DNA from: Candidatus Woesearchaeota archaeon
Lineage (GTDB): Archaea; Nanobdellota; Nanobdellia; SCGC-AAA011-G17; UBA489
DNA length: 11,327 bases
Reading direction: 5' to 3'
Assembly (NCBI GenBank): GCA_030679025.1
Contig: JAUXTV010000168.1
Coordinates: forward strand, 1-11,327
The notes below the pieces were generated by a model. The model had not been told where the DNA came from. It saw only the letters and a list, made by a program, of their open reading frames with translations, and searched no databases. The stretch's first letter is position 1, and each line of letters begins with the position of its first letter. Made by a program: the position numbers and the translations under genes. This document shows, one piece after another, positions 1-11,327 of this stretch.

Positions 1-40
1 GTTATTCTGTGGTTATTCCAAAAATCACTTATTAGCTTAC

Positions 41-805
41 TTAGTTAACTTCTCTTTTGAAGTAGACTGCAATAACTGTCATGACTGCCAATATAAAAGC
101 AATCATTATGGTTGAGACTGCTGGAATCAAGAGCACTAATACACTAGTTATTGCTGTAATGGCTAAAGCAAAAGTAAAGAGATATATTGATGTGAACAAC
201 ATTCTTCCTCCAGCTAACTGCGGAAAGGGAAGCATATGACTTAATAATAAAGCAATATTCATGAATATTAATTGTTTCCAAAGTTCTGCACCTGTTTTTT
301 CAAAAGCAAAAGCAAAGAGTATAGTCGCCAAAGTAGTTGCCATAATGCCTGCAAACATAATGCGAGCTTCTTCATAATCAGTATCATGCACCCATTTTTT
401 CCCAATACGATGCACAGTATTGACTGATGTCAAAACCATAGCCACACTTGCCAACCATATTTGTCCTTCACTGAAGACTGCAATAAATATTGGCAGAATA
501 ATTCCTAAAGGGAAATGATTCATTAGCTTATTTTTATGAATATACTGATAATCTTTGAACCCGAAGCGACTTATTCCCCAGATATTATATTCAGTCTGTA
601 TATTATAACGTCCTGCAGCCCATTTATGCCCTAAAACCATGATTATCAAGGAAATTAAGCTTAAAGCAACCATAAACATATAATTGGAAAACCAGGCTTC
701 TAAACTAAAGAATTCACGTCCATCATCGAAACCAAATACGAATCCCAGCACTAGAGCTGATACTATTATACTAAATATTTCTTTTTTCGTGAAGCTTATT
801 TTCAT
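41..805 (-). CDS. Site-2-protease (M50)-like membrane protein, probably catalytically dead
   Basis: A 254-residue polytopic membrane protein with about six hydrophobic segments. It resembles archaeal M50 (site-2 protease) proteins. In these a HELGHK-type zinc motif is followed by an R-Y-G/N stretch, then an AGP-like turn, then a late N/L-P-x-P-x-L-D-G-G-R motif. Here residues 56-65 read MVLGHKWAAG, followed by RYN, so the second His and following Lys are kept but the first His and the catalytic Glu are replaced by Met and Val. Residues 192-200 read LPFPQLAGG, so the zinc-binding Asp is Ala. Two of three metal ligands and the general base are therefore missing, and I infer a pseudoprotease with a binding or scaffold role. 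The ATG overlaps the end of the upstream TraB-family gene by 35 nt, and an in-frame stop lies two codons before it, which limits the start. Co-transcription with TraB is likely. Family placement is by motif only, moderately sure. Confidence 0.72.
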   Translation of the reverse strand: MKISFTKKEIFSIIVSALVLGFVFGFDDGREFFSLEAWFSNYMFMVALSLISLIIMVLGHKWAAGRYNIQTEYNIWGISRFGFKDYQYIHKNKLMNHFPLGIILPIFIAVFSEGQIWLASVAMVLTSVNTVHRIGKKWVHDTDYEEARIMFAGIMATTLATILFAFAFEKTGAELWKQLIFMNIALLLSHMLPFPQLAGGRMLFTSIYLFTFALAITAITSVLVLLIPAVSTIMIAFILAVMTVIAVYFKREVN

Positions 806-1466
806 GTTTTATTAACTCAATTAACTCTTTTTCATGACCTGCGCCTACAACAGCGACAATAGGTTCTTCTTTTTCTACATTCATTAGTTTATATAAGTTT
901 TTTGCCATGTACTCATTTCGCTCTTCTATGATAGTTTTGTAAAATGAAGGGTATCTTTTCTTTACTTGTGCTGTCAATTGCTTGATTACTTTTTCTTCAG
1001 GCACTTTTGTGAGATCAATTTTTATTTTTTGCTTACTGGAAACAAAGCTGAAGAGTATTTCTTTAATGAATCTTCCTTTCTCTCGCCAAGTGACTCTCTT
1101 TGAAAATCTTTTTAACACTATTTCTATGTCTTCATCTATTAATGCAAGGTTTGCTTTTACTTTACTTGCAATTTCTGCTGCTTTTTTCATTTCTGAACCT
1201 GGGGGGACTCCGACCATTTTTCCTAGCTTTTTTTCTGCCCAGAACCCTAGCAACTGAAATACGAATCCTTTAACACCTACTTTTCTTATATCTGCGAGTC
1301 TCATTTTCCTTTTTGTTGGATGCATCAATGCAAAAAATCTTCTTTTATCTAATTCTAGCGCTACAATTTTTGGTTTTATTTCTAAAATAACTTTTTCTAC
1401 TTCTTCCACGCTTTGCTTTGCTATGTGGGACGTCCCTATCAAGTAAAGATTTTTGTAGGTTTTCAT
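771..1466 (-). CDS. TraB-family protein (TraB/TIKI/GumN-like), soluble form
   Basis: A 231-residue protein with the hallmarks of the TraB family: GTSH at residues 11-14 after a first beta strand, a VALELD segment at 35-40, a P-G-S-E-M stretch followed by a helix and then a LIDED-like segment, and a C-terminal VVGAGHEKEL with GAGH at 208-211. The two G-x-x-H motifs are the putative metal/active-site elements of the TraB/TIKI superfamily. Bacterial TraB is linked to pheromone shutdown, but the archaeal role is unknown. Archaeal TraB proteins are often longer, with a C-terminal membrane region. This one stops just after the GAGH domain and has no membrane helix. The next gene, overlapping by 35 nt, is a membrane protein, which may supply anchoring (inference). 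The ATG lies about 37 nt from the centre of a TATA element shared with the divergent PRC-barrel gene. Confidence 0.88.
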   Translation of the reverse strand: MKTYKNLYLIGTSHIAKQSVEEVEKVILEIKPKIVALELDKRRFFALMHPTKRKMRLADIRKVGVKGFVFQLLGFWAEKKLGKMVGVPPGSEMKKAAEIASKVKANLALIDEDIEIVLKRFSKRVTWREKGRFIKEILFSFVSSKQKIKIDLTKVPEEKVIKQLTAQVKKRYPSFYKTIIEERNEYMAKNLYKLMNVEKEEPIVAVVGAGHEKELIELIKHENKLHEKRNI

Positions 1467-1496
1467 GGCTTTAATATGTGTTTTAAGAAAGGAAAA

Positions 1497-1510
1497 TCTT
1501 TATATACTTT
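1497..1510. promoter_or_regulatory. Bidirectional TATA element between TraB and PRC-barrel genes
   Basis: The sequence TCTTTATATACTTT reads as a TATA box on both strands (CTTTATATA on plus, AGTATATAAAG on minus). On plus it is centred about 56 nt before the PRC-barrel ATG, giving a predicted 5' leader of about 30 nt that holds the Shine-Dalgarno sequence. On minus it is centred about 37 nt before the TraB ATG, giving a leader of about 10 nt. Assignment is by position and sequence only. Confidence 0.6.
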
Positions 1511-1546
1511 GACTTGCTGATTCGCTTTATTCAAAACAACACTCCT

Positions 1547-1556
1547 GGAGGGTGAT
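1547..1556 (+). promoter_or_regulatory. Strong Shine-Dalgarno sequence of the PRC-barrel gene
   Basis: GGAGGGTGAT lies 2 nt before the ATG at 1559. Either GGAGG (longer spacing) or GGTGAT (shorter spacing) can pair with the archaeal 16S rRNA tail. This is the strongest ribosome-binding site in the window and fixes the start codon. Confidence 0.7.
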
Positions 1557-1558
1557 AC

Positions 1559-1876
1559 ATGCTCAAAGTCAAAAAGATTACCCATGTCTATGAAATGAAG
1601 GTGTTTACTGACGCTGGCGAATACTTTGGGGATGTTGAAGAATGCATTCTTACTATGAATAAAATCTTTGGGTGGAGAGTTAGAGCAACTCGTAATTCTT
1701 CCCTGCACAAATTATTAGGGGGAGCGAAAGGAGTTATAGTTCCTCATCGCTTAGTTCGTGCAATTGGTGATATAATGATTATCAGCAAGAGTGCAATACC
1801 AGCTGGTGCCGAAGGCGAAGATGCTGCAGTCAACAGATCAGAAAGTGATTCTGGTATGAGTATGGCTGAAGCATAA
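1559..1876 (+). CDS. Small PRC-barrel domain protein
   Basis: A 105-residue soluble protein. Residues 1 to about 80 show the PRC-barrel pattern: short alternating strands, a D-A-G-x-x-x-G turn near residue 20 (FTDAGEYFGDVEE), a basic W-R-V-R strand and a final hydrophobic strand ending at IISKSAI. The tail of about 25 residues is acidic, rich in Ser/Ala and probably disordered. Single-domain PRC-barrel proteins are widespread in archaea. In haloarchaea some (the CdpB proteins) act in cell division with SepF, but nothing here proves that role, and RNA-processing or other adaptor roles are equally possible. The start is fixed by the strong Shine-Dalgarno sequence just upstream. A small membrane-protein gene follows after 10 nt and probably shares the transcript. 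Confidence 0.75.
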   Translation: MLKVKKITHVYEMKVFTDAGEYFGDVEECILTMNKIFGWRVRATRNSSLHKLLGGAKGVIVPHRLVRAIGDIMIISKSAIPAGAEGEDAAVNRSESDSGMSMAEA

Positions 1877-1886
1877 TTTTTCTTTT

Positions 1887-2174
1887 ATGAAAGCCAAACA
1901 AAGACTCATTAAGACTATTAAAATCAATAAACACATTGTTAAAGCTAAAAAATCCTTTCTTGAACTTTATGTAACTTTAGCAGTTCTTAGCTTTTCACTT
2001 GGATTTGCTTTGTTTATTAGCGCAATCATTAAATTAATTGAACCAGAAAATCCTTGGAATGCACTTTGGCTTGGAATTGTTCTTATTTTTGTCCCAGTAT
2101 TCTTAGGAGTTTGGAAAATCCACCACATTAAAGGAAAGAGGTTTCATCATTTCAAAAGATTAAGGATAGAATAA
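1887..2174 (+). CDS. Small two-TM membrane protein, unknown function
   Basis: I do not recognise this 95-residue protein. It has a very basic N-terminus (about eight Lys/Arg in the first 22 residues), a hydrophobic helix at about 27-50, a short loop with E-P-E-N-P-W at 52-57, a second helix at about 57-76, and a basic, His-rich C-terminus (WKIHHIKGKRFHHFKR). By the positive-inside rule both termini should lie in the cytoplasm, forming a hairpin. It lies 10 nt behind the PRC-barrel gene with no promoter between them, so co-transcription is likely. No strong ribosome-binding site is visible, so translation may depend on coupling to the gene upstream. Reality is supported by the consistent TM/basic pattern and by its place in the operon. 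Confidence 0.68.
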   Translation: MKAKQRLIKTIKINKHIVKAKKSFLELYVTLAVLSFSLGFALFISAIIKLIEPENPWNALWLGIVLIFVPVFLGVWKIHHIKGKRFHHFKRLRIE

Positions 2175-2199
2175 CTTTCTTTTAATTTATTATTTAAAT
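2174..2199 (+). terminator. Possible T-rich archaeal terminator
   Basis: The stretch just after the two-TM gene contains several T runs (CTTTCTTTTAATTTATTATTTAAAT) in an otherwise gene-free 98-nt gap, before the next promoter at 2243. Archaeal termination often occurs at such oligo-T tracts without a hairpin. Weak evidence, because the whole region is AT-rich. Confidence 0.3.
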
Positions 2200-2242
2200 C
2201 TTCAGAATCAAGGTTTAGGACAGAGCTATGAGAATCATAAGG

Positions 2243-2250
2243 TTTTTATA
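2243..2250 (+). promoter_or_regulatory. TATA box for the KIFG-box gene triplet (leaderless)
   Basis: TTTTTATA is centred about 26 nt upstream of the ATG at 2273. This is the usual archaeal distance from TATA box to transcription start, so the mRNA should begin at or next to the start codon. In line with that, no Shine-Dalgarno sequence precedes the ATG. Confidence 0.6.
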
Positions 2251-2272
2251 GTAGGTTCAGTTTGTTTTCTTC

Positions 2273-2839
2273 ATGGCTAGTACGTTAGGGAATGCGATAC
2301 AGTTCTTGCAAGACTTTGGACTTTTCGATGTTATTCTACCTTTTTTACTAGTTTTCACTTTAGTTTTTGCAGTCTTAGAAAAAACCAAAATCTTCGGTAC
2401 AGAAGGATCTAAAGACAAAGAACAAACACGAAAGAATTTGAATGCTATGGTGGCTTTTTCAGTTGCTTTTTTCGTCACTGCTTCTGTGAGCATAGTTAGC
2501 GCATTCCAAATTGCTTTACCTTGGGTAGCTTTAGTCTTAGTTATTATTGTGAGCTTCATGTTATTAGTAGGCATCTTTTTTGGTGAAGGTCAACTTGACT
2601 TTTTCAAAACATTCAAGAAACCTACCGCAACTTTTATGGTTATTCTTATTGTAGTTGTTTTAATTATCTTCCTTGCAGCATTTGGTCAGTTAGGAACTAT
2701 TTTAAACTTCTTTACAGGTGATGCACAAAATAGCACTATCTTTACTTCAGTTATCTTTTTACTCTTATTAGTTGCTGCTATGTGGTTTGTTATTGGCAGA
2801 GACAAAAAAACAGAAGAAGGTGGAAAATCTAAAACTTAG
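2273..2839 (+). CDS. KIFG-box five-TM membrane protein, first of three tandem paralogues
   Basis: A 188-residue integral membrane protein with five predicted helices (about 16-35, 57-77, 81-104, 119-138, 155-174) and a charged Lys/Glu-rich C-terminal tail. The first helix has the form L-P-F-L-L-x-F-x-x-x-F-A-x-L-E-K, followed by KIFG at 39-42 and a charged loop. The same arrangement recurs in the next two genes, so the three are paralogues. The longest loop between helices 1 and 2 (FGTEGSKDKEQTRKN) is hydrophilic. No enzyme motif is visible and I do not know the function. The location near a secretion ATPase and platform protein suggests a membrane component of that apparatus or a lineage-specific membrane scaffold (inference). 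It is the first gene of its operon, behind a leaderless promoter, and is separated from the second paralogue by 11 nt. Confidence 0.82.
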   Translation: MASTLGNAIQFLQDFGLFDVILPFLLVFTLVFAVLEKTKIFGTEGSKDKEQTRKNLNAMVAFSVAFFVTASVSIVSAFQIALPWVALVLVIIVSFMLLVGIFFGEGQLDFFKTFKKPTATFMVILIVVVLIIFLAAFGQLGTILNFFTGDAQNSTIFTSVIFLLLLVAAMWFVIGRDKKTEEGGKSKT

Positions 2840-2850
2840 GTGATACAACT

Positions 2851-3381
2851 ATGGCTTACGATCTTTACAGCGTGATAACGCAATGGCAGGAAATTGGTGT
2901 TTATGGAGTTTTACTTCCCTTCTTACTTATTTTTGCAATTAGTTTTGCTATTTTAGAAAAGATCAAAATCTTCGGAGAAGGCAAGAAACAAATTAATGTT
3001 CTAGTTTCTGCAATTCTAGGACTTCTGTTTTTACAAAACGTTTATTTGGTTGAACGCATTCAATTTATTTTGCCTAAAGTTGCCTTTTCCTTACTCATCT
3101 TTGTCTTATTTTTATTATTGGCTGGCGTCCTTTCAGGAAAAACTCATACAGCATCGAATGGGTGGAGCTGGTTAGCTTTTTTAGCAGCTGCTATTTTCCT
3201 CATTTGGTCTTTAAGTCCTCTAGAAAGTGAAGGCTTTGGCTGGGATCCTGTCTATTATTTCTTTGAAACTATACCTCAATGGATTGTTGTAGTAGCTATT
3301 GTAGGAACTATTCTTTATTTCCTTACTAAGCCTGATGGCGGTTCATCTGACAAAAAACCAAAGAAACAAGAAGAGGAATAA
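2851..3381 (+). CDS. KIFG-box five-TM membrane protein, second paralogue
   Basis: A 176-residue membrane protein with the same plan as its upstream neighbour: helices at about 16-35, 48-63, 72-95, 105-122 and 142-158, the box LEKIKIFG with KIFG at 39-42 (the same position as in the first paralogue), and a charged tail ending KKQEEE. The loop after KIFG is short and basic (EGKKQ). The segment between helices 4 and 5 carries a W-D-P-V-Y-Y patch not found in the other two, perhaps an extracytoplasmic feature. GGTGAT lies 6 nt before the ATG and serves as the ribosome-binding site. It is co-directional with and tightly spaced to both paralogues (11 and 3 nt), so all three are surely on one transcript. 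Function unknown. Confidence 0.82.
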   Translation: MAYDLYSVITQWQEIGVYGVLLPFLLIFAISFAILEKIKIFGEGKKQINVLVSAILGLLFLQNVYLVERIQFILPKVAFSLLIFVLFLLLAGVLSGKTHTASNGWSWLAFLAAAIFLIWSLSPLESEGFGWDPVYYFFETIPQWIVVVAIVGTILYFLTKPDGGSSDKKPKKQEEE

Positions 3382-3384
3382 TTC

Positions 3385-3903
3385 ATGGCAACCATTCTTG
3401 ACACTAACATTGTTTCCTTCTTAACACCTATATTTATATTTATCTTATTATTTGCTATCTTTTTTGCCTTAATTCAAAAATTCAAGATCTTTGGTGACAA
3501 ATCTGAGAATCTTGCAGCAATAGCAGCTTTTTCCTTATCTATACTCATAGTCTTGTCTACACCAGCGAGAGATGTTGTGCAAACTATGACTCCTATGATA
3601 GTCATTATGTTCTTATTTGTCTTCTTGATTTTCCTTTTCTTTATGTTCTTAGGAGCAAAGGACGATGATTTAGTGAAACATGTTGTTAAAAGTCCTGGTT
3701 TTTATACTACCATGATTATTATCTTTCTTATTATCTTTTTAATATCCCTAACAAAAGCATTTGGACCTATATTCCAAGTGAGTGGACAGGCAGGATTTTG
3801 GGAGTCTACTAAGCGAGTTGTCTTTTCCCCAAGAGTTCTTGGTGGTCTTTTCCTTTTGATGATTGCAGCCTTTACAGTACGTTACTTAGGCTCAACAAAA
3901 TAA
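3385..3903 (+). CDS. KIFG-box five-TM membrane protein, third paralogue
   Basis: A 172-residue membrane protein and the most diverged of the three. Its helix 1 ends in ALIQKFKIFG (KIFG at 34-37), so the Glu of the L-E-K box is replaced by Gln. Further helices lie at about 42-60, 68-90, 106-124 and 150-168. Helix 3 is very rich in Phe (FLFVFLIFLFFMFLG), and a charged AKDDD loop follows it. The C-terminus is short (VRYLGSTK) and lacks the long charged tail of the other two. AGAGG lies 8 nt before the ATG, overlapping the end of the second paralogue. The gene ends 9 nt from the stop of the convergent coiled-coil gene, in a T-rich spot that could terminate transcription in both directions. Function unknown. 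Confidence 0.82.
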   Translation: MATILDTNIVSFLTPIFIFILLFAIFFALIQKFKIFGDKSENLAAIAAFSLSILIVLSTPARDVVQTMTPMIVIMFLFVFLIFLFFMFLGAKDDDLVKHVVKSPGFYTTMIIIFLIIFLISLTKAFGPIFQVSGQAGFWESTKRVVFSPRVLGGLFLLMIAAFTVRYLGSTK

Positions 3904-3912
3904 TTTTGCTTA

Positions 3913-4548
3913 TTATTTATTAGCTTTGAATTTTTCTGTAATTCTTGACAATTCTTTTACATTAGAAGACAAAGGAGTAATTACATTCTGCAATACTTTT
4001 TCTAGTGCTTTAATATCTGTTCCCACTTCTGTAATATGCTGATCATAATCATGCACTTTTCCAATAATTATTTTTTGTAAACTTTCTACTTTAGCGTCTA
4101 ATCGCACTAATTCTTGCTTGATGGAAAGCACATCAGTTCTTACTTTTTCTTTCCACATATTTAAGTCTCCCATATTCTCCATCAATTTCTGCCATTTCTC
4201 ATTAATGATAGACTCTGCAACTTGTTCAATCATATCTTCTGTATCCCTGTTTCCTTGACTACTTGCTGTCATTGCAGGACGCATCATTTGAGAACTTACT
4301 TGCATTACTTGAGGACTAGGATTGGAAGAAGGCATTGGTCTAGTCATAGACATAGCAGAGGGCTGCATACCTGCTGGGCTAGGTGCTGGAGGCGTTTCAA
4401 TATTTGCCTTTGTTTCTGCCTGTGTTAAAGCATCGGCAATTTGTTCATAGCTGAAACCCTGACTTTCTAATTCCTCTATAATCTGCTTGTTCGAAGCTCC
4501 ACGCTTTACCATATTCATGACTAATTCTGTTGGAGGTTCATTTGCCAC
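3913..4548 (-). CDS. Adaptor-like protein: N-terminal helical domain, Pro/Met linker, C-terminal coiled coil
   Basis: A 211-residue soluble protein with three parts. Residues about 8-45 form a small helical module with two turns of a G-x-S/F-x-x-x-I-x-x-x-L pattern (RGASNKQIIEELESQGFS, then YEQIADALTQAE), resembling a UBA-like or swap-type helical domain. Residues about 50-100 are a Pro/Met/Ser/Gln-rich linker, likely disordered. Residues about 105-211 are amphipathic heptads forming a coiled coil. The start is GTG at 4548, supported by AGGTG six bases upstream; it overlaps the upstream gene by 11 nt, so the two are translationally linked. General character and neighbourhood suggest a cytoplasmic adaptor of the secretion/filament system, comparable to archaellum FlaC/D/E proteins. 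No family-defining motif was recognised, so the role is inferred. Confidence 0.75.
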   Translation of the reverse strand: MANEPPTELVMNMVKRGASNKQIIEELESQGFSYEQIADALTQAETKANIETPPAPSPAGMQPSAMSMTRPMPSSNPSPQVMQVSSQMMRPAMTASSQGNRDTEDMIEQVAESIINEKWQKLMENMGDLNMWKEKVRTDVLSIKQELVRLDAKVESLQKIIIGKVHDYDQHITEVGTDIKALEKVLQNVITPLSSNVKELSRITEKFKANK

Positions 4549-4909
4549 GTTTTACACCTGCAGATTTTTGTATAATGAGACTTTCTACTTCTTCTGTTGT
4601 TACGAAACGCATAGGATTAATTAAGTCAATATATTTTTCGAGGACTTTTACTTGCTCTTTTTTTGCAAATAACTCCATTTCTTTGACCATATTTCTCATT
4701 GCGTCTTGTGTGAGCATAGTTTCTTGCCGCATTTCTCTTAGATCTTCATTGATTATTTTCATCTCTCTAAGCAATCGTTTATACTCTTCGATCATGTTCT
4801 GATTGACTACTAATAATCTTTCACCGAGCAAATTGTATTTGTTCTCTAAAGTTCTGATACGGTTGTTTAGATCAACGATGACTTGTGTTATTTCTTGCCC
4901 TTCTTGCAT
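4538..4909 (-). CDS. Coiled-coil protein, possible archaellum-type (FlaC/D/E-like) accessory protein
   Basis: A 123-residue soluble protein. Residues about 5-95 are nearly continuous heptads (RIRTLENKYNLLGERLLVV and onward, many Arg/Glu/Met/Leu). It ends in a conserved-looking non-coil segment at about 93-112 with KYIDLINPMRFVTTEEVE, then a basic tail. The short C-terminal I-N-P-x-x-F-V-T-x-x-E-V element recalls the region after the coil in archaellum accessory proteins of the FlaC/D/E group, but this is a weak resemblance. The gene is first in a two-gene minus-strand operon and its stop overlaps the GTG start of the next gene. The start is not well marked: AGAGGTGA lies about 21 nt before the ATG, too far for normal pairing, and an in-frame TGA just upstream rules out an earlier start. 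Confidence 0.72.
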   Translation of the reverse strand: MQEGQEITQVIVDLNNRIRTLENKYNLLGERLLVVNQNMIEEYKRLLREMKIINEDLREMRQETMLTQDAMRNMVKEMELFAKKEQVKVLEKYIDLINPMRFVTTEEVESLIIQKSAGVKRGK

Positions 4910-4998
4910 ACTTGTTTGGAGAACTCTTGTTCACCTCTTTCTTTTGTGAGAAGGTATCGTCCTTTAAATAGCTTTCTGCCTTTCTCTCGTGCATGAGG

Positions 4999-5012
4999 AA
5001 AGTATATAAATT
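4999..5012. promoter_or_regulatory. TATA element, bidirectional, for the secretion ATPase and possibly the coiled-coil operon
   Basis: AAAGTATATAAATT reads as a good TATA box on both strands (TATATAAA on plus, TTTATATA on minus). On plus its centre is about 27 nt from the ATG at 5033, predicting a leaderless ATPase mRNA. On minus it would give a leader of about 70 nt before the coiled-coil gene at 4909. A second minus-strand candidate, TATTTAAA near 4963-4970, would give a leader of about 30 nt. Confidence 0.6.
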
Positions 5013-5032
5013 TCGTTCTTTTGAAAGATTTT

Positions 5033-8000
5033 ATGCCTGAGGCACAAAAAACTGGTGAATATGAAATTATTTTGGAAGGGAGTGAGGAAGTTTTACGCAT
5101 TGACGCGAATAAATGGAGCCATAGTCCCTCTGTAGAAGACCATCCCCTAGTGATGGCAAGCACCATTGACAAATTAGTTGAAGTCCCTACAGTAAGTCGT
5201 TTGTTTTTTCATCAGAGACGTTACTACTCTTATAATTCTGAACAGACTCAATACCTTGTAGAGATTGCAAAAATTTATGATCATCTAGTTCGAGGAAAAA
5301 AACTCTTCACCTTAGGAGCACTAGGCTTTGATGAGTCTTATGTTGGATTTATTCAAGAAAAAAACTCACTCTTTGAATATTTAGTCTTTGATTTATTACG
5401 TCATGATCCTTTGGGCTGCTATATTGAAGTTCAGAGATTACTGCGCGAAGAAAAAATAGTTATAGAACGAGAAACGGTTCAGCCTTTGCTTCATTTACGC
5501 AAACGTTATGCTGGATTATTAGAATATTTCTTTACTTTACTAGACTCTACACAGATGGTTGCTGTGGTTCGCAGCCAATTAGCTGGCTATAAGATAGGTG
5601 ACAGAAGTTTCTACCGTCAACTCTTCCGACCTTTGATGACTCCTGATTTCATGTATACTCAAGTGATGGCACAACCTCCTTTGAATGGAGAACAAGTCGA
5701 TGTCTATTCCAATGGCAAAAGCGAGATTACTGTTTTTCGCATACCAGGTGATATTAAATTACTTTATCATCTTTATCCTCCAGAATTCAAATTAACTGAA
5801 GACGAATATACTCTTTTAGAATTAGCAAGAAATGTTTTAGCAGAACACAAGCCACGACAAGAAGAATTTTTAGATCCTCAACGCATGAGAAAAACGTTTT
5901 TTAACATCGGGAGAGATTTATTGCAAGAACTAGTAGAACACAAACAAATTTCCCTTGACTACAAACAAATTGCACTCTTAGCAGATATTCTAGTGCGCTA
6001 TACTGTTGGTTTTGGCATTTTAGAAATTTTATTACAAGACGAAAAAGTACAAGACATCATGGTGAATGGACCTATAGGCCAAACTCCTATTTTCTTAGTG
6101 CATCAAGATTATGGAGAATGCGTCACTAATATTATCCCTAGCAGAGAAGATAGTGACAGCTGGGCTACCAAATTACGCTTGTTAAGTGGAAGACCTTTAG
6201 ATGAAGCAAATCCTGTTTTAGATACGGACTTGTCCATACCTGGAGCAAGAAGCAGAGTATCTGTTATTACAACTCCCTTAAGTCCTGTTGGATTGTCTTT
6301 CGCATTCCGTAGACATAGAGATAAACCTTGGACTTTTCCCTTATTTATTCAACAGAAAATGCTGACACCTTTAGCTGCCGCAGTTTTGAGTTTTGCTATT
6401 GATGGCGGAAGAACTTTATTATTTGCAGGTACAAGAGGAAGCGGTAAGACTAGTTTGTTGGGAGCATCACTTGTAGAGATTATGCGCACTCATAGAATTA
6501 TTTCTATTGAAGACAGTGTTACAGGTGATTCAGAAATTCTTATCAAAAAAGCAAATTGCATACAAAAAACCACTATAGGTAAACTTATAGATTCTTCAAT
6601 TCAAAAATATGGATCATGGTATAATCTTTCAGGCCATGAAGTCTTAGGGAATCGTGAATCCATTCAAGTTCTTTCTCTCAATAAAGACAATAAACTCACT
6701 TGGTCACACCCATCAAAACTTATTCGTCACAAAGTGCAAAAGCAAATTTATCAGATTAAAACACGAACTGGACGAATTATTAAAACTACTGCAGATCATT
6801 CTCTTTTTACTTTAGGTGACGAAGGCACACTTCAAGAAATAAAACCCGTTAATTTATCTATAGGATCTCATATAGCTACCATACGAAAAATACCTTTCAA
6901 CGACTATGCTCAGAATACTATTAACTTATTAGATTATTTAGATAGAATTCCTAGAGGTATTTTACAAGGAGAATCTTTGAAAAAATTTATAAAAAAATAC
7001 TATTCTGAGATTAAACAATTAGCAAAAGAACAAGGTTATACACGTTCGATACCTCCTCGTTGGCTTAGATTAGGACAATTGCCTATTGTTATCCTTAAGA
7101 ACTTAAATATAGACTTTACTCCCTTTAAAGAAAAATTATCCTATAAATACTCTGGAAATTCCCAACCAATACCAACAGACATTAGACTTGATTCTGAATT
7201 TTTAATGCTTGTTGGCTTATGGCTAGCAGATGGCTGTTATGATGAAAGATCTATAATCGTGTCTAGCTTTGACGAAGAAGATAGTAATATAGTTTGTTTA
7301 GCCGCAAAACAATTCAAATTGACCCCTAAGATTCATTCTGATGGTGGATCTTTAATGATTAATTCAACAACTCTTAGATTTATTTTTCGAGACATCCTTG
7401 AACTTCGCGGAGATGCTTATACTAAGAAAGTTCCTTCATGGATTTATAGTCTTTCCAAACAACAAATAGCTTTTGTTCTTCAGGGAGTTTTCAGTGGAGA
7501 CGGCTGTGTTTCTGATAATGAAATAGTTATTCCTCTAGCCTCTTATCAATTATTAAGAGATCTTCAAACTTTGCTCTTGGGTTATGACATTACCCTTCGA
7601 ATAGGAAAAAAAAGGAAAGACGGTACTTTTAATGCTGGGATTAGCACATTAAGAGATTTTATAGAATTTAAGAAAAATATTGGTGTTTTACAATCTTACA
7701 AACTCAATTGTTTAGATAAACTTTGCTTAAAACGTTCAACACATGACACTACTGATATTATCCCTCTATCTCTCCAGCTGAAAAAAGAAATTTCTAATCT
7801 TACTAAAGATAATAAAATTTTTAATACTCAAGATTATATCTCTAGAAATAATAATGTCGGTAGAAGAAAATTCCTAACTTTAATGACTCAAGTTCAGATA
7901 ACAACTAACATTACTCAAAATTTGCAAAAATTAGTTCATGCCGACATTTTTTGGGATGAAGTTGCAGAGATTGAACCACTATCCTCTACAGAATTATATG

Positions 8001-8869
8001 TCTATGACTTATCTGTTCCAGATTATGAAAACTTTGTTTGTAATAATATTTTACTTCATAATACGCTTGAACTTCCGATTGACGCTTTACGCAATATGGG
8101 TTATAATATTCAACCGATGAAAGTACGAGCCGCATTAATGAGCGGAGGCAATGAACTTGCTGCTGATGAAGGCATTAGAACTTCTCTTCGTATGGGTGAT
8201 AGTTCCTTAATTGTTGGAGAGATTAGAAGTGTTGAAGCGAAAGCTTTGTTTGAAGCCATGCGTATTGGCGCCTTAGCAAATGTTGTTGCAGGAACTATTC
8301 ATGGTGCACATCCTTATGCTGTTTATGATAGAATAGTTAATGATTTGGGAGTACCCAAAACTAGCTTCAAAGCAGTTGATCTTATTATCGTTAGCAATCC
8401 AGTTCGCAGCGCAGATGGCTTACATAGCAAGAGAAGAGTTTTACAAATTACAGAAGTACGCAAACATTGGGATGATGATCCACAAAAGCAAGGCGGATTT
8501 GTAGATTTGTTCAGATATGACAGCAAACAAGATGCACTTTTACCTACAGATGATTTATTACAAGGCAACAGCGAAGTCTTGAAAAGCATTGCTGCAAATG
8601 TTCGTGAATGGGCAGGCAATTGGGATGCGGTCTGGGATGGGGTCTTAGTGCGTGCACAAGTGAAAGAAACTTTACTTAAGGCAGCACAGGCTTATGCACT
8701 TCCAGAACTTCTTGAAGCACCTTTTGTTGTGCAAAGCAATGATTATTTTCATCAAAGCGCAGACAAAATCAATGAACAACATCATGTTTATGACAATAAA
8801 CGCATTTTTGCAGATTGGGAAGCTTGGTTGCGCCAAGAAGTTAAACGCAGGAAGTTTCCATCATCATGA
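5033..8869 (+). CDS. Type II/IV secretion (FlaI/VirB11/GspE-like) ATPase, interrupted by an intein
   Basis: A cytoplasmic hexameric-type ATPase expected to power filament assembly or secretion with the platform protein encoded next. The precursor is 1278 residues; removing the intein (precursor residues 495-1010) leaves 762. From about residue 320 the usual N2 domain is visible (G-I-L-E-I-L-L-Q-D, then I-M-V-N-G). Walker A is GTRGSGKTS at 466-474 with Lys472. The Asp box is ISIED joined to TLELP once the intein is out. Walker B is SLIVGEIR (bases 8201-8227) and the His box is GTIHGAHP (from 8291), so all catalytic motifs are present. The first 320 residues and a C-terminal extension of about 100 residues match nothing I recognise; FlaI is usually near 550 residues. 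I chose ATG 5033 over TTG 5021, four codons upstream, because the TATA box places the transcription start at 5031-5033. The stop overlaps the next ATG as ATGA. Whether it serves a pilus, archaellum or secretion system cannot be told. Confidence 0.93.
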   Translation: MPEAQKTGEYEIILEGSEEVLRIDANKWSHSPSVEDHPLVMASTIDKLVEVPTVSRLFFHQRRYYSYNSEQTQYLVEIAKIYDHLVRGKKLFTLGALGFDESYVGFIQEKNSLFEYLVFDLLRHDPLGCYIEVQRLLREEKIVIERETVQPLLHLRKRYAGLLEYFFTLLDSTQMVAVVRSQLAGYKIGDRSFYRQLFRPLMTPDFMYTQVMAQPPLNGEQVDVYSNGKSEITVFRIPGDIKLLYHLYPPEFKLTEDEYTLLELARNVLAEHKPRQEEFLDPQRMRKTFFNIGRDLLQELVEHKQISLDYKQIALLADILVRYTVGFGILEILLQDEKVQDIMVNGPIGQTPIFLVHQDYGECVTNIIPSREDSDSWATKLRLLSGRPLDEANPVLDTDLSIPGARSRVSVITTPLSPVGLSFAFRRHRDKPWTFPLFIQQKMLTPLAAAVLSFAIDGGRTLLFAGTRGSGKTSLLGASLVEIMRTHRIISIEDSVTGDSEILIKKANCIQKTTIGKLIDSSIQKYGSWYNLSGHEVLGNRESIQVLSLNKDNKLTWSHPSKLIRHKVQKQIYQIKTRTGRIIKTTADHSLFTLGDEGTLQEIKPVNLSIGSHIATIRKIPFNDYAQNTINLLDYLDRIPRGILQGESLKKFIKKYYSEIKQLAKEQGYTRSIPPRWLRLGQLPIVILKNLNIDFTPFKEKLSYKYSGNSQPIPTDIRLDSEFLMLVGLWLADGCYDERSIIVSSFDEEDSNIVCLAAKQFKLTPKIHSDGGSLMINSTTLRFIFRDILELRGDAYTKKVPSWIYSLSKQQIAFVLQGVFSGDGCVSDNEIVIPLASYQLLRDLQTLLLGYDITLRIGKKRKDGTFNAGISTLRDFIEFKKNIGVLQSYKLNCLDKLCLKRSTHDTTDIIPLSLQLKKEISNLTKDNKIFNTQDYISRNNNVGRRKFLTLMTQVQITTNITQNLQKLVHADIFWDEVAEIEPLSSTELYVYDLSVPDYENFVCNNILLHNTLELPIDALRNMGYNIQPMKVRAALMSGGNELAADEGIRTSLRMGDSSLIVGEIRSVEAKALFEAMRIGALANVVAGTIHGAHPYAVYDRIVNDLGVPKTSFKAVDLIIVSNPVRSADGLHSKRRVLQITEVRKHWDDDPQKQGGFVDLFRYDSKQDALLPTDDLLQGNSEVLKSIAANVREWAGNWDAVWDGVLVRAQVKETLLKAAQAYALPELLEAPFVVQSNDYFHQSADKINEQHHVYDNKRIFADWEAWLRQEVKRRKFPSS
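6515..8062 (+). mobile_element. Intein with LAGLIDADG homing endonuclease, in the ATPase Asp box
   Basis: An in-frame 516-residue protein-splicing element. It starts with Ser1 in SVTGDSEIL (block A, more often CVTGDT). Block B is TTADHSLFT with His95. Two LAGLIDADG motifs follow: LVGLWLADG at 232-240 (Asp239) and LQGVFSGDG at 322-330 (Asp329). Block F is VYDLSVPDYENFV at 496-508 and block G is NNILLHN at 510-516, followed by extein Thr+1. All residues needed for splicing (Ser1, block B His, His515, Asn516, Thr+1) and both endonuclease acidic residues are present, so the element looks splicing-competent and possibly still able to home. Excision restores ISIED-TLELP exactly. Serine codon choice differs sharply from the host gene (AGC 2 of about 42, against 10 of 16 in the downstream extein), a sign of separate origin. 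Boundaries are firm; activity is inferred. Confidence 0.96.
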
Positions 8870-10977
8870 ATTCGGCAGTAGACGACGTTGTCCACAAATA
8901 TCAACAGCGTCTTGAAGCATCAACAGGAGATTCTTTATCTTCTCAAGTGCAATCTCGCGAATATTTGTTATTTCGCAAAGAAGCTTTGGAGAAACGATTT
9001 ACTTATTATGAGCAATGGTGCAAATTTGCAGAACATCTTCTTCCAGTTAAAGTTCAAGAGAAAGAACTTCCAGCTATTCAAGAATCTCTGCGTATTTCTC
9101 ATCTAGATATTACACCTAACAGCACCGCTAGCTTCGCTGCTTTAGTTTCTTTAGCACTAGTATTTTTTGGAGTCTTTATTGGAGTAATCAGTTATGTTAC
9201 TGGCAGTCTTTTGTTATCTGCTAGCTTATTTTTTATTTTATCCGGAATAGTTTTAATTAAACCTTTATCACGATTACCTTACTATTTCGCAACTCGATGG
9301 CGATTACAAGTCAGCAATCAAATGGTGTTGTGTATTCTGTATATTGTCATGTACATGCGTCATACTTCTAATTTAGAACATGCAGTTAAATTTGCTGCAG
9401 AACATCTGGGAGGACCTTTAAGCTTAGATTTAAAACGTGTCTTTTGGCAAATAGAAACTGAAGAATATTTTACAATTAAAGAAAGCCTGGACGCTTATTT
9501 AGAACAGTGGAGAAAATACAACTTAGAATTTTTAGAATCTTTTCATTTGATTGAAGGAAGTTTGTATGAGCAGAGCGAAGGCAAACGCTTGGAATTGTTG
9601 GAAAAATCTTTACAAGTCATGCTGGATGGAACTTATGACAAGATGTTGCATTATGCACACAATTTGAAAAGTCCTATTACTGTCTTACACATGTTAGGTA
9701 TTATTTTACCTATTCTTGGTTTAGTTATGTTTCCTATGATTGGCAGTTTTTTATCAGGATTGGTTAAATGGTATCATATTGCATTTCTTTATAATTTAAT
9801 TTTACCTTTTTTAGTTATGTATCTGGGTAATTCTATGCTTAATACTAGACCTTCTGGCTATGGAGAAAATGATATTCTTTTACAACGTCCCGATTTGAAA
9901 CGTTATCAAAGCTTAGCAAATGGTGTGTCTCCTTTGTCTATTACTTTATCCATTATTTCCTTATTTTGCATTGTAGGATTTATTCCTCTTTATATTTATT
10001 TTTTTAGTCCTGACTTTGATTTTCCTTTTTTCGGCGGAGAATTTTTTGACTTTAAAGGAGGCAATGGACCTTATGGTGTAGGTGCACTTTTTTTGAGTTT
10101 ATTTATTCCTCTGGGACTTTCTTTAGGATTAGCTTTTTTCTATTGGGTCAAAAGCAGAAAACTGGTTGCCTTCAAAGAAAAGACTGATGCCTTGGAAGTT
10201 GAGTTTAGCGGCGCATTATTTCAATTAGGCAATAGAATTGGCGATGGTATTCCCGCGGAGGTTGCTTTCGGCGATGTGAGCCAACAAATGCAAGGAACAC
10301 CTACGGGCGATTTCTTCAGAATTGTCAACATGAATATTCGCAATGCAGGCATGAGCATTAAAGAGGCCATATTTCATCCTCAACGCGGAGCTTTATTATT
10401 TTTCCCAAGTTCTTTAATTGAAAGCACGATGAAAGTTTTAGTTGAAAGCGCAAAAAAAGGCTCACAAATTGTCAGCAGAAGCTTGTTAACTATCAGCGAT
10501 TATATCACTAGAATTTATCGCATTAATGAACGATTGAAAGATTTGTTAGCAGATGTCTTAAGCAGCATGACTAGCCAAATTACTTTTTTGACTCCTTTAA
10601 TTGCAGGCATAGTTGTTGGTGTTGGCAGCATGGTTGTTACGATTATTAACAAATTAGGAGAACAATTTGCAAGTCTAGAGAATCCAGAACAAGGATTGAC
10701 TGGAGGCATTAGCGCTTTAGTCAGTGTTTTGGATATCAAAGATGTTATTCCTAGTTATTATTTTCAATTAGTTGTTGGTGTTTATGTTGTACAGATCACT
10801 ATTATTCTTACTTTGTTATCTACACGCATTGAACGAGGATATGATCAGACTACTACTCATCAGCGTCTTAGCAAAAATCTTTTGACTGCAGGCATTCTTT
10901 ATTTCTTAGTGAGTTTTATAGGCATTGTTGTCTTTACTCTTTTAGCCAATACAGTTAGCTTTGTAGGCGTTTCTTAG
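8866..10977 (+). CDS. FlaJ/TadC-like membrane platform protein (two T2SS-F regions)
   Basis: A 703-residue integral membrane protein, the expected partner of the ATPase upstream. Hydrophobic helices lie at about 88-110, 114-132, 272-296, 303-322, 355-380, 405-427, 573-595, 632-652 and 673-695. Two long cytoplasmic helical regions, about 145-270 and 432-572, match the layout of duplicated T2SS-F domains. The second has the typical pattern F-S-G-A-L-F-Q-L-G-N-R-I-G-D-G-I-P followed by a helix and a N-A-G-M-S-I-K-E-A-I turn. In archaella and type IV pili this protein anchors the filament base and transmits motion from the ATPase. A charged N-terminal region of about 85 residues precedes the first helix. 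The loop at about 381-404 is rich in Phe, Asp and Gly (FFGGEFFDFKGGNGPYG). The ATG overlaps the ATPase stop (ATGA), so the pair is translationally coupled. Whether it is FlaJ, TadC/PilC or a distinct lineage form needs comparison. Confidence 0.88.
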   Translation: MNSAVDDVVHKYQQRLEASTGDSLSSQVQSREYLLFRKEALEKRFTYYEQWCKFAEHLLPVKVQEKELPAIQESLRISHLDITPNSTASFAALVSLALVFFGVFIGVISYVTGSLLLSASLFFILSGIVLIKPLSRLPYYFATRWRLQVSNQMVLCILYIVMYMRHTSNLEHAVKFAAEHLGGPLSLDLKRVFWQIETEEYFTIKESLDAYLEQWRKYNLEFLESFHLIEGSLYEQSEGKRLELLEKSLQVMLDGTYDKMLHYAHNLKSPITVLHMLGIILPILGLVMFPMIGSFLSGLVKWYHIAFLYNLILPFLVMYLGNSMLNTRPSGYGENDILLQRPDLKRYQSLANGVSPLSITLSIISLFCIVGFIPLYIYFFSPDFDFPFFGGEFFDFKGGNGPYGVGALFLSLFIPLGLSLGLAFFYWVKSRKLVAFKEKTDALEVEFSGALFQLGNRIGDGIPAEVAFGDVSQQMQGTPTGDFFRIVNMNIRNAGMSIKEAIFHPQRGALLFFPSSLIESTMKVLVESAKKGSQIVSRSLLTISDYITRIYRINERLKDLLADVLSSMTSQITFLTPLIAGIVVGVGSMVVTIINKLGEQFASLENPEQGLTGGISALVSVLDIKDVIPSYYFQLVVGVYVVQITIILTLLSTRIERGYDQTTTHQRLSKNLLTAGILYFLVSFIGIVVFTLLANTVSFVGVS

Positions 10978-10982
10978 CAATC

Positions 10983-10990
10983 TTTATATA
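10983..10990 (+). promoter_or_regulatory. TATA box for the last, partial gene (leaderless)
   Basis: TTTATATA is centred about 26 nt before the ATG at 11013, in a 35-nt gap after the platform gene. No Shine-Dalgarno sequence precedes the ATG, which fits leaderless transcription. It means the last gene can be expressed apart from the ATPase/platform operon. Confidence 0.65.
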
Positions 10991-11012
10991 GTTCTAAGGA
11001 TGAATTTCTTTT

Positions 11013-11327
11013 ATGCAAAAAGAGGTTTCTCGTATCCCGTGGATTTCTATAGCACTTGTTTTCATAGCTATTATTACTGTGGGAATTTTCATGCAACCTA
11101 GTTTCGATCCTACTGGTGCACTAGTTTATCGTGATTATAGTTACGGCGGTGGCTATGGTGGATTTTATGGTGGTGGTCAACTTAGCATTACTAATTTTTA
11201 TGAAGAATTTCATGTTTATATCGACTCTATAATTTTTCTTATTATTTTTCTGAGCATAGGCAAGGCTGTATTTTTGAAACACTTTAACACGGGCGGTAAA
11301 TCTTTGTATGTAGCAGTAGGATTAGCT
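11013..11327 (+). CDS. Membrane protein with Tyr/Gly-rich loop, 3' end beyond the window
   Basis: An open frame of 105 codons from ATG to the window edge, with no stop. The start is basic (MQKEVSRIP) and leads into a hydrophobic helix (WISIALVFIAIITVGIFM, about 10-27). About 30 residues follow with a Tyr/Gly-rich low-complexity stretch (DYSYGGGYGGFYGGGQ, about 40-55), then a second helix (about 68-88, IDSIIFLIIFLSIGKAVFL), then the start of a possible third (SLYVAVGLA). The Gly/Tyr loop should lie outside the cytoplasm if the N-terminus is inside. I recognise no family. It is not a clear type III signal peptide or pilin, as no basic residue plus Gly cleavage site precedes the helix. It is downstream of the platform gene, but has its own promoter. 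A short alternative ATG at 11000 gives only about 30 codons in another frame and is less likely. Confidence 0.7.
   Translation, partial: MQKEVSRIPWISIALVFIAIITVGIFMQPSFDPTGALVYRDYSYGGGYGGFYGGGQLSITNFYEEFHVYIDSIIFLIIFLSIGKAVFLKHFNTGGKSLYVAVGLA

Follow-up and report, generated by a model that had tools for sequence, protein, structure and literature searches.

The archaeal LAGLIDADG inteins PI-PkoII (2cw7), PI-PfuI (1dq3) and TliVMA (7qss) have a two-part fold, composed of a splicing domain and an inserted LAGLIDADG endonuclease. The same fold is predicted for an element of 516 residues encoded in a stretch of 11,327 nucleotides from Candidatus Woesearchaeota archaeon (assembly GCA_030679025.1, contig JAUXTV010000168.1, positions 1 to 11,327, hereafter the window), where it interrupts the Asp box of a motor ATPase. 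PI-PkoII resembles it with a template modelling (TM) score of 0.75 by query length and about 19% identity. The three are known inteins in host proteins other than the motor ATPase of the window. KlbA itself is a secretion-type ATPase, and its intein carries Ala1 and Cys+1. In Methanocaldococcus jannaschii (MJ0781, 2jmz/2jnq) the KlbA intein, which was matched by the A1 profile (E = 1.1e-7), is described as a natural mini-intein (PMC8229266); it is devoid of an endonuclease, whereas the window intein contains a LAGLIDADG endonuclease domain. The haloarchaeal MCM-a and MCM-d (minichromosome maintenance) inteins occupy several sites in one ATPase gene, one of them after the Walker A lysine, and undergo interspecies transfer (PMC10643990). 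Their host is a replicative helicase and their activity was tested in vivo, while that of the window intein is inferred from sequence. At the very same position, Asp-box inteins are found in a paralogous motor of the window genome (contig C41, locus L002) and of the genomes G023, G019 and G028. These read IED or VED/S...HN/TREL or TREI and have the same Ser1/Thr+1 pair, but they are 34-39% identical to the window intein and are separated from its clade (support 99/98). No published description of the Asp-box allele of the window was recognised in the open-licence literature searched, which is not proof of its absence.

The element is very probably an intein of class 1 (Ser1...His-Asn/Thr+1) that carries a LAGLIDADG homing endonuclease, placed at the Asp-box site of a DPANN filament or secretion motor ATPase. 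Pfam searches of positions 6515-8062 returned Intein_splicing (PF14890, E = 7.7e-25, 87.9 bits with a cut-off of 35.8) and LAGLIDADG_3 (PF14528, E = 3.9e-13, 49.9 bits with a cut-off of 22.5). Both ends were above the NCBIfam cut-offs, with 47.3 bits for intein_Nterm TIGR01445 (24.5) and 21.7 bits for intein_Cterm TIGR01443 (15.6). The junctions read ...GTRGSGKT...HRIISIED / SVTGDSEI...NNILLHN / TLELPIDA, and the class-1 residue set (Ser1, TxxH, terminal His-Asn and Thr+1) is complete. Sixteen inteins were aligned to evaluate conservation, of which 12 come from the ATPase of the window and 4 from its paralogue. The AlphaFold2 model of the intein reached a pLDDT (predicted local distance difference test) of 90.4 and a pTM (predicted TM score) of 0.91, and its best solved match in Foldseek was the intein endonuclease PI-PkoII (E = 1e-28). 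Alignment and model indicated that both LAGLIDADG helices end in acidic residues. The profile scores exclude chance, as does the recurrence of these boundaries in 69 of the 79 loci kept from named genomes (see below). To judge from these matches, 6515-8062 is an ordinary class-1 intein with a LAGLIDADG endonuclease domain; the individual allele is new, and the type is well known. The first-pass annotation had described a full-length 516-residue Ser1/Thr+1 intein located between Walker A and Walker B, exactly at IED/TLEL, with both LAGLIDADG acids kept and a spliced product of 762 residues, and each of these points was borne out by the profiles, the junctions and the alignments.

It was considered whether the intein could be degenerate, that is, splicing-dead, with the motor lost or working as two pieces. 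No stop codon occurs within the intein and the catalytic residues checked are all present, and the host gene is strongly constrained, as 58 silent codon changes and only 1 non-silent were counted in the N-extein against the congeneric genome G002. Such a dead element is extremely improbable.

The host gene is one open frame (5021-8869), which encodes 1278 residues from the ATG at 5033 and thus 762 after removal of the 516 of the intein. Its product matched the T2SSE family (PF00437) above the Pfam cut-off (E = 3.2e-11), as well as the structures of GspE, CpaF and FlaI (E values from 3e-29 to 2e-20), with Walker A, Asp box and Walker B in order. The archaellum FlaI was rejected as host identity (122.9 bits with a cut-off of 550, NCBIfam NF058587), and so was TadA/CpaF proper (111 bits with a cut-off of 373, TIGR03819), both being scored on the intein-bearing precursor; the source annotations call some homologues TadA. 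The earlier designation as a FlaI-like ATPase is appropriate, as far as these scores tell, only in the broad sense of the VirB11 family and does not extend to the archaellum protein.

By CpaF numbering, transferred manually through the alignment, the intein directly follows the counterpart of D309, and the glutamate of TLEL, at position 3 of the C-extein, is the counterpart of E312. The spliced protein aligned without gaps at the junction to two intein-free solved homologues, the archaeal GspE 2oap (SIEDTREI) and CpaF (TCEDAAEL). The insertion splits the gene in such a way that Walker A remains on the N side. With Walker B and the Mg-coordinating glutamate of the Asp box both encoded beyond the intein, in the C-extein, the precursor ATPase is probably inactive before splicing, in agreement with what the first-pass annotation had supposed. 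The Walker A lysine would then be separated from both of these by 516 residues, leaving the ATPase dead. Class-1 inteins splice by ester formation at residue 1, transfer to the +1 residue and cyclisation of the asparagine. In the window intein, Ser1 would convert the Asp-Ser bond into an ester, the N-extein would be taken over by Thr+1, and Asn516 would finally cyclise, restoring IED-TLEL.

The distribution of the intein was evaluated in the order of the window, in which the ATPase was detected in 95 of 103 genomes (E ≤ 1e-60; eight were without a match at this threshold). The intein sites in the gene are numbered 1 (after the Walker A lysine), 2 (Asp box) and 3 (after GEIRS, beside Walker B). 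Junctions were called automatically, and the 79 called empty at site 2 were then re-read individually. Site 2 was occupied in 14 orthologues, including G001, whose contig begins within the intein, and it was empty in 80 (79 by script and G089 by alignment reading); no call was obtained for G020. The first-pass annotation had made its case depend on intein-free homologues that align across the ISIED/TLELP junction, and 74 of the 79 empty junctions were found to read ED/T, the others being 4 ED/V and 1 EG/T. The DNA of one empty site, that of G004, reads ...GTTGAAGACACTTTAGAA..., whereas G089 passes the site as VEDNLEI (N at +1), with 3 stop codons listed in that match. The variant sites ED/V (G083, G078, G079 and G072), EG/T (G022) and ED/N (G089) are all without an Asp-box intein (loci L051, L060, L082, L114, L057 and L061); possibly such alleles resist invasion or do not allow the intein to be spliced out. 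In the family of the window (f1), the intein was present in all 3 genomes of its genus (g1) and absent from all 6 genomes of the other genera (g2 and g3). At least 9 changes between presence and absence were counted on an extein tree of 94 rows, built by a quick method and on which gain and loss are indistinguishable.

The first-pass annotation had inferred that the inactivity of the precursor could act as a switch on filament assembly or secretion. A regulatory intein of this kind would splice conditionally and keep the filament motor off until a cue is received. As the insertion leaves Walker A apart from the two motifs on the C side, splicing must come before activity, which is in line with this proposal, and other inteins have been reported to splice conditionally (PMC7360933, PMC5874633). 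The intein is nevertheless patchily distributed (occupied in 14 of 95 orthologues and empty in 80, among them 6 of 9 in f1), and this, the empty alleles in sister genomes and the repeated changes on the tree are unlike a device kept by selection, so that the switch is unsupported. In addition, all 16 aligned inteins retain the acidic residues of the endonuclease, as expected of an element maintained by mobility, and for the haloarchaeal MCM inteins frequent gain and loss was argued to speak against a sweeping host benefit (PMC10643990). A switch is consequently regarded as highly improbable.

Relatives of the intein were also found beyond the order. A collection of named genomes gave 380 pattern matches, 297 of which encode intein relatives; of these, 79 distinct loci, chosen by intein similarity, were kept, and some of them belong to genomes that are also in the order census. 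Besides the 69 DPANN loci with the boundaries ED/S...HN/T, five were shortened or had their start or end elsewhere (L120, L175, L177, L181 and L197), in three the match began elsewhere in the frame (L160, L166 and L168), L176 displayed a stop and an altered end, and L170 had Ser+1. Their titles comprise Woesearchaeota, Pacearchaeota, Nanoarchaeota, Aenigmatarchaeota, Micrarchaeota, Diapherotrites, Nanohalarchaeota and others, some being plain archaeon and one a bacterium. Visual inspection of the flanks assigned the hosts to two types of motor, one like the ATPase of the window and one like its paralogue. Among homologous proteins (689 in total), 102 of the 120 matches listed could be parsed by pattern, all with Ser1/Thr+1 (P0073 with a wrong start); 18 were not parsed, of which 3 display the expected start and 15 the expected end. 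In a phylum-wide draw of 371 genomes, 26 contained close intein relatives, whatever the site (E ≤ 1e-60, up to 4 candidates scored per genome, both motor paralogues pooled). Viral carriage was rejected as well: the scan of IMG/VR gave no full-length relative, and only 3 weak partial matches (27-28% identity) were obtained among 16 pattern matches.

The mobility of the intein was assessed by comparing the DNA of the window (genome G000) with that of G002, the two being 96% identical over the whole window. Mismatches number 3 in the 1548 bases of the intein and 421 in the 9779 bases of the remaining window (about 4.3%; Fisher p = 2e-23, gaps excluded), while the lowest number of mismatches in any stretch of 1548 bases outside the intein was 38. 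On the 5' side the last mismatch lies at 6505, ten bases before the intein, and on the 3' side the first is found at 8221. Copying at a homing site that has been cut would leave a boundary as near to the insertion as this. Most differences were silent in the coding stretches counted, and silent codon changes amounted to 3 of 516 in the intein, 58 of 494 in the N-extein and 11 of 268 in the C-extein.

The trees of intein and host were in conflict. In the intein tree, the three f1 rows grouped with G046 and G077 of another family, f12 (100/99), leaving the third f12 intein, that of G081, outside; in the extein tree, G046, G077 and G081 were placed together (100/100). The approximately unbiased (AU) test rejected a single clade for the inteins of the three f12 hosts (p-AU 2.6e-18), and also one for the exteins of the f1 hosts together with G046 and G077 (p-AU 7.8e-12). 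The first pair of trees included 13 of the 14 Asp-box inteins (without G073), and the tree set for the AU tests includes G073. Natural pairs with one occupied and one empty allele were observed in G073/G074 and G064/G065, the exteins being 89-92% identical in DNA; G064 also carries a site-3 intein, which G065 lacks. Recent transfer of the intein between related species, of which these data bear clear traces, is supported because the intein is near-identical amid diverged DNA, the intein and host trees conflict and such occupied and empty hosts occur in pairs. The idea of the first-pass annotation that the intein may still move is in good agreement with the DNA comparison and the conflicting trees. 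Spread would take place when the endonuclease cuts empty alleles of the conserved stretch and a copy of the intein is inserted there, a copying that is read from its DNA trace only (a near-identical intein in surroundings that diverge by about 4%, and conflicting trees).

Several observations weigh against recent transfer. The near-identity tract was seen in one genome pair only, and the contrast is weaker on the C side, where the C-extein is little diverged (13/804) compared with the N-extein (59/1482), which could result from co-copying or from mere constraint. The clades submitted to the AU test were picked after the trees had been seen. The named relatives are mostly metagenome-assembled genomes or isolate-bin records and the window genome is in 233 contigs, so the identity tract could be mimicked by a mis-assembled intein stretch present in both bins; the window contig, which continues into its own flanks on both sides of the intein, counts against this. 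Finally, the intein of G001 is 84% and its extein 86% identical (partial rows, with 353 intein residues and 35% of the extein columns), a similar divergence that fits plain descent within the genus, and the five inteins of family f4 group together (89/87). These last two points, together with the presence of the intein in all three g1 genomes, would be expected from purely vertical inheritance of an old insertion that was lost in most lineages and did not move recently. Such a history does not accord with the near-identical intein of G000 and G002 within DNA that is 4.3% diverged, silent sites included, nor with the AU tests, which reject a host-like grouping of the f12 inteins, and it is given a very slim chance.

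Further inteins were detected in the same gene. Among the orthologues of the order, site 1 (GSGK/T) was occupied in 4 cases, namely G036, G039 and G082 by script and G011 by alignment reading; the script calls G011 empty, the alignment breaks there, and the count was raised from 3 to 4. For site 3, 6 clear and 5 half-seen cases were found. Sites 2 and 3 were both occupied in 13 of the 120 listed homologues, and 13 more were without a call at one or more sites. Mutual exclusion of sites 1 and 2 was discarded, as L156 (Micrarchaeota) appears from its flanks to carry both. In the paralogous motor on contig C41, a second intein-like insert of 547 residues (L025:809-2449, minus strand) starts with Cys and ends with ...TLVED/T instead of His-Asn. 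It matched LAGLIDADG_3 (1.3e-13) and scored 18.5 bits for Intein_splicing, below the cut-off of 35.8; inserts with the same Cys start and TLVED-type ends were observed in G048 and G021. Aspartate-ended inteins are known. The intein load of the window genome (1,065,344 bases) is heavy, with ten matches to the intein splicing domain on contigs C41, C42, C72 (below cut-off), C81, C88, C92, C102 and C107; among these eight contigs, hosts were identified for C41 and C107.

Table 1. Features of the intein-bearing locus (window positions) and loci with inteins at the other two sites
Feature	Position or loci	Strand	Evidence or remark
Precursor gene, T2SSE/VirB11-family ATPase	5033..8869	+	1278 codons and stop; TTG start at 5021 possible; PF00437, solved GspE/CpaF/FlaI matches
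N-extein, end ...HRIISIED	5033..6514	+	Sequence, junction alignments
Walker A GTRGSGKT, in N-extein	6428..6451	+	Sequence; aligned to CpaF K287/T288
Near-identity tract to G002	6506..8220	+	Mismatches only at 6697, 6709 and 7003
Intein, 516 residues	6515..8062	+	Pfam, NCBIfam, junctions, 16-intein alignment
Ser1, first nucleophile	6515..6517	+	Invariant in 16/16 inteins
TxxH (T92, H95), taken to be block B	6788..6799	+	Invariant in 16/16 inteins
D239, first LAGLIDADG aspartate (GLWLADG)	7229..7231	+	Invariant in 16/16; end of model helix 227-239
D329, second LAGLIDADG aspartate (GVFSGDG)	7499..7501	+	Invariant in 16/16; end of model helix 315-329
His515-Asn516, C-terminal splicing pair	8057..8062	+	Invariant in 16/16
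C-extein, from Thr+1	8063..8866	+	Junction alignments
Asp-box glutamate (E of TLEL)	8069..8071	+	Counterpart of E312 of CpaF, which coordinates Mg; numbering transferred manually
Walker B LIVGEIR	8207..8227	+	Sequence; structure-relative alignment
Downstream gene, 703-residue membrane protein	8866..10977	+	Open frame; overlaps ATPase end
Site 1 loci	L062, L068, L069, L070
Site 3 loci, clear	L058, L059, L060, L068, L070, L072
Site 3 loci, half-seen	L057, L061, L064, L065, L073

The membrane protein encoded downstream of the ATPase gave no family match in Pfam or NCBIfam, and its position suggests that it is probably a platform of the FlaJ/TadC type. Upstream, at 2273-3903, three adjoining small membrane proteins of 188, 176 and 172 residues have similar starts (e.g. 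PFLLVFTLVFAVLEKTKIFG and PFLLIFAISFAILEKIKIFG), looking like tandem paralogues.

The setting of this intein has been thinly described. Table 1 of one archaeal multi-intein survey (PMC10643990) covers 2 genomes of DPANN archaea, in which a single-intein gene was counted once and a multi-intein gene never; in the present analysis, close relatives (both motor paralogues pooled) occur in 26 of the 371 genomes drawn from the phylum, and several genes contain two inteins. For a group known here from assemblies alone, G000 and G002 and the two pairs of occupied and empty hosts are ready material for a homing test. The allele represents a large Ser1/Thr+1 intein family, possibly useful in protein engineering. 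A wider proposal, considered very unlikely, is that DPANN filament motors are a multi-site intein hub, in which the Asp-box allele moves between species and families and occupies two paralogous motors, and in which the intein load could time filament assembly, every insertion being expected to disable the motor up to the point of splicing. If this were true, three invariant catalytic motifs of the motor, Walker A (GK/T), the Asp box (ED/T) and Walker B (GEIRS/), would have been separately invaded.

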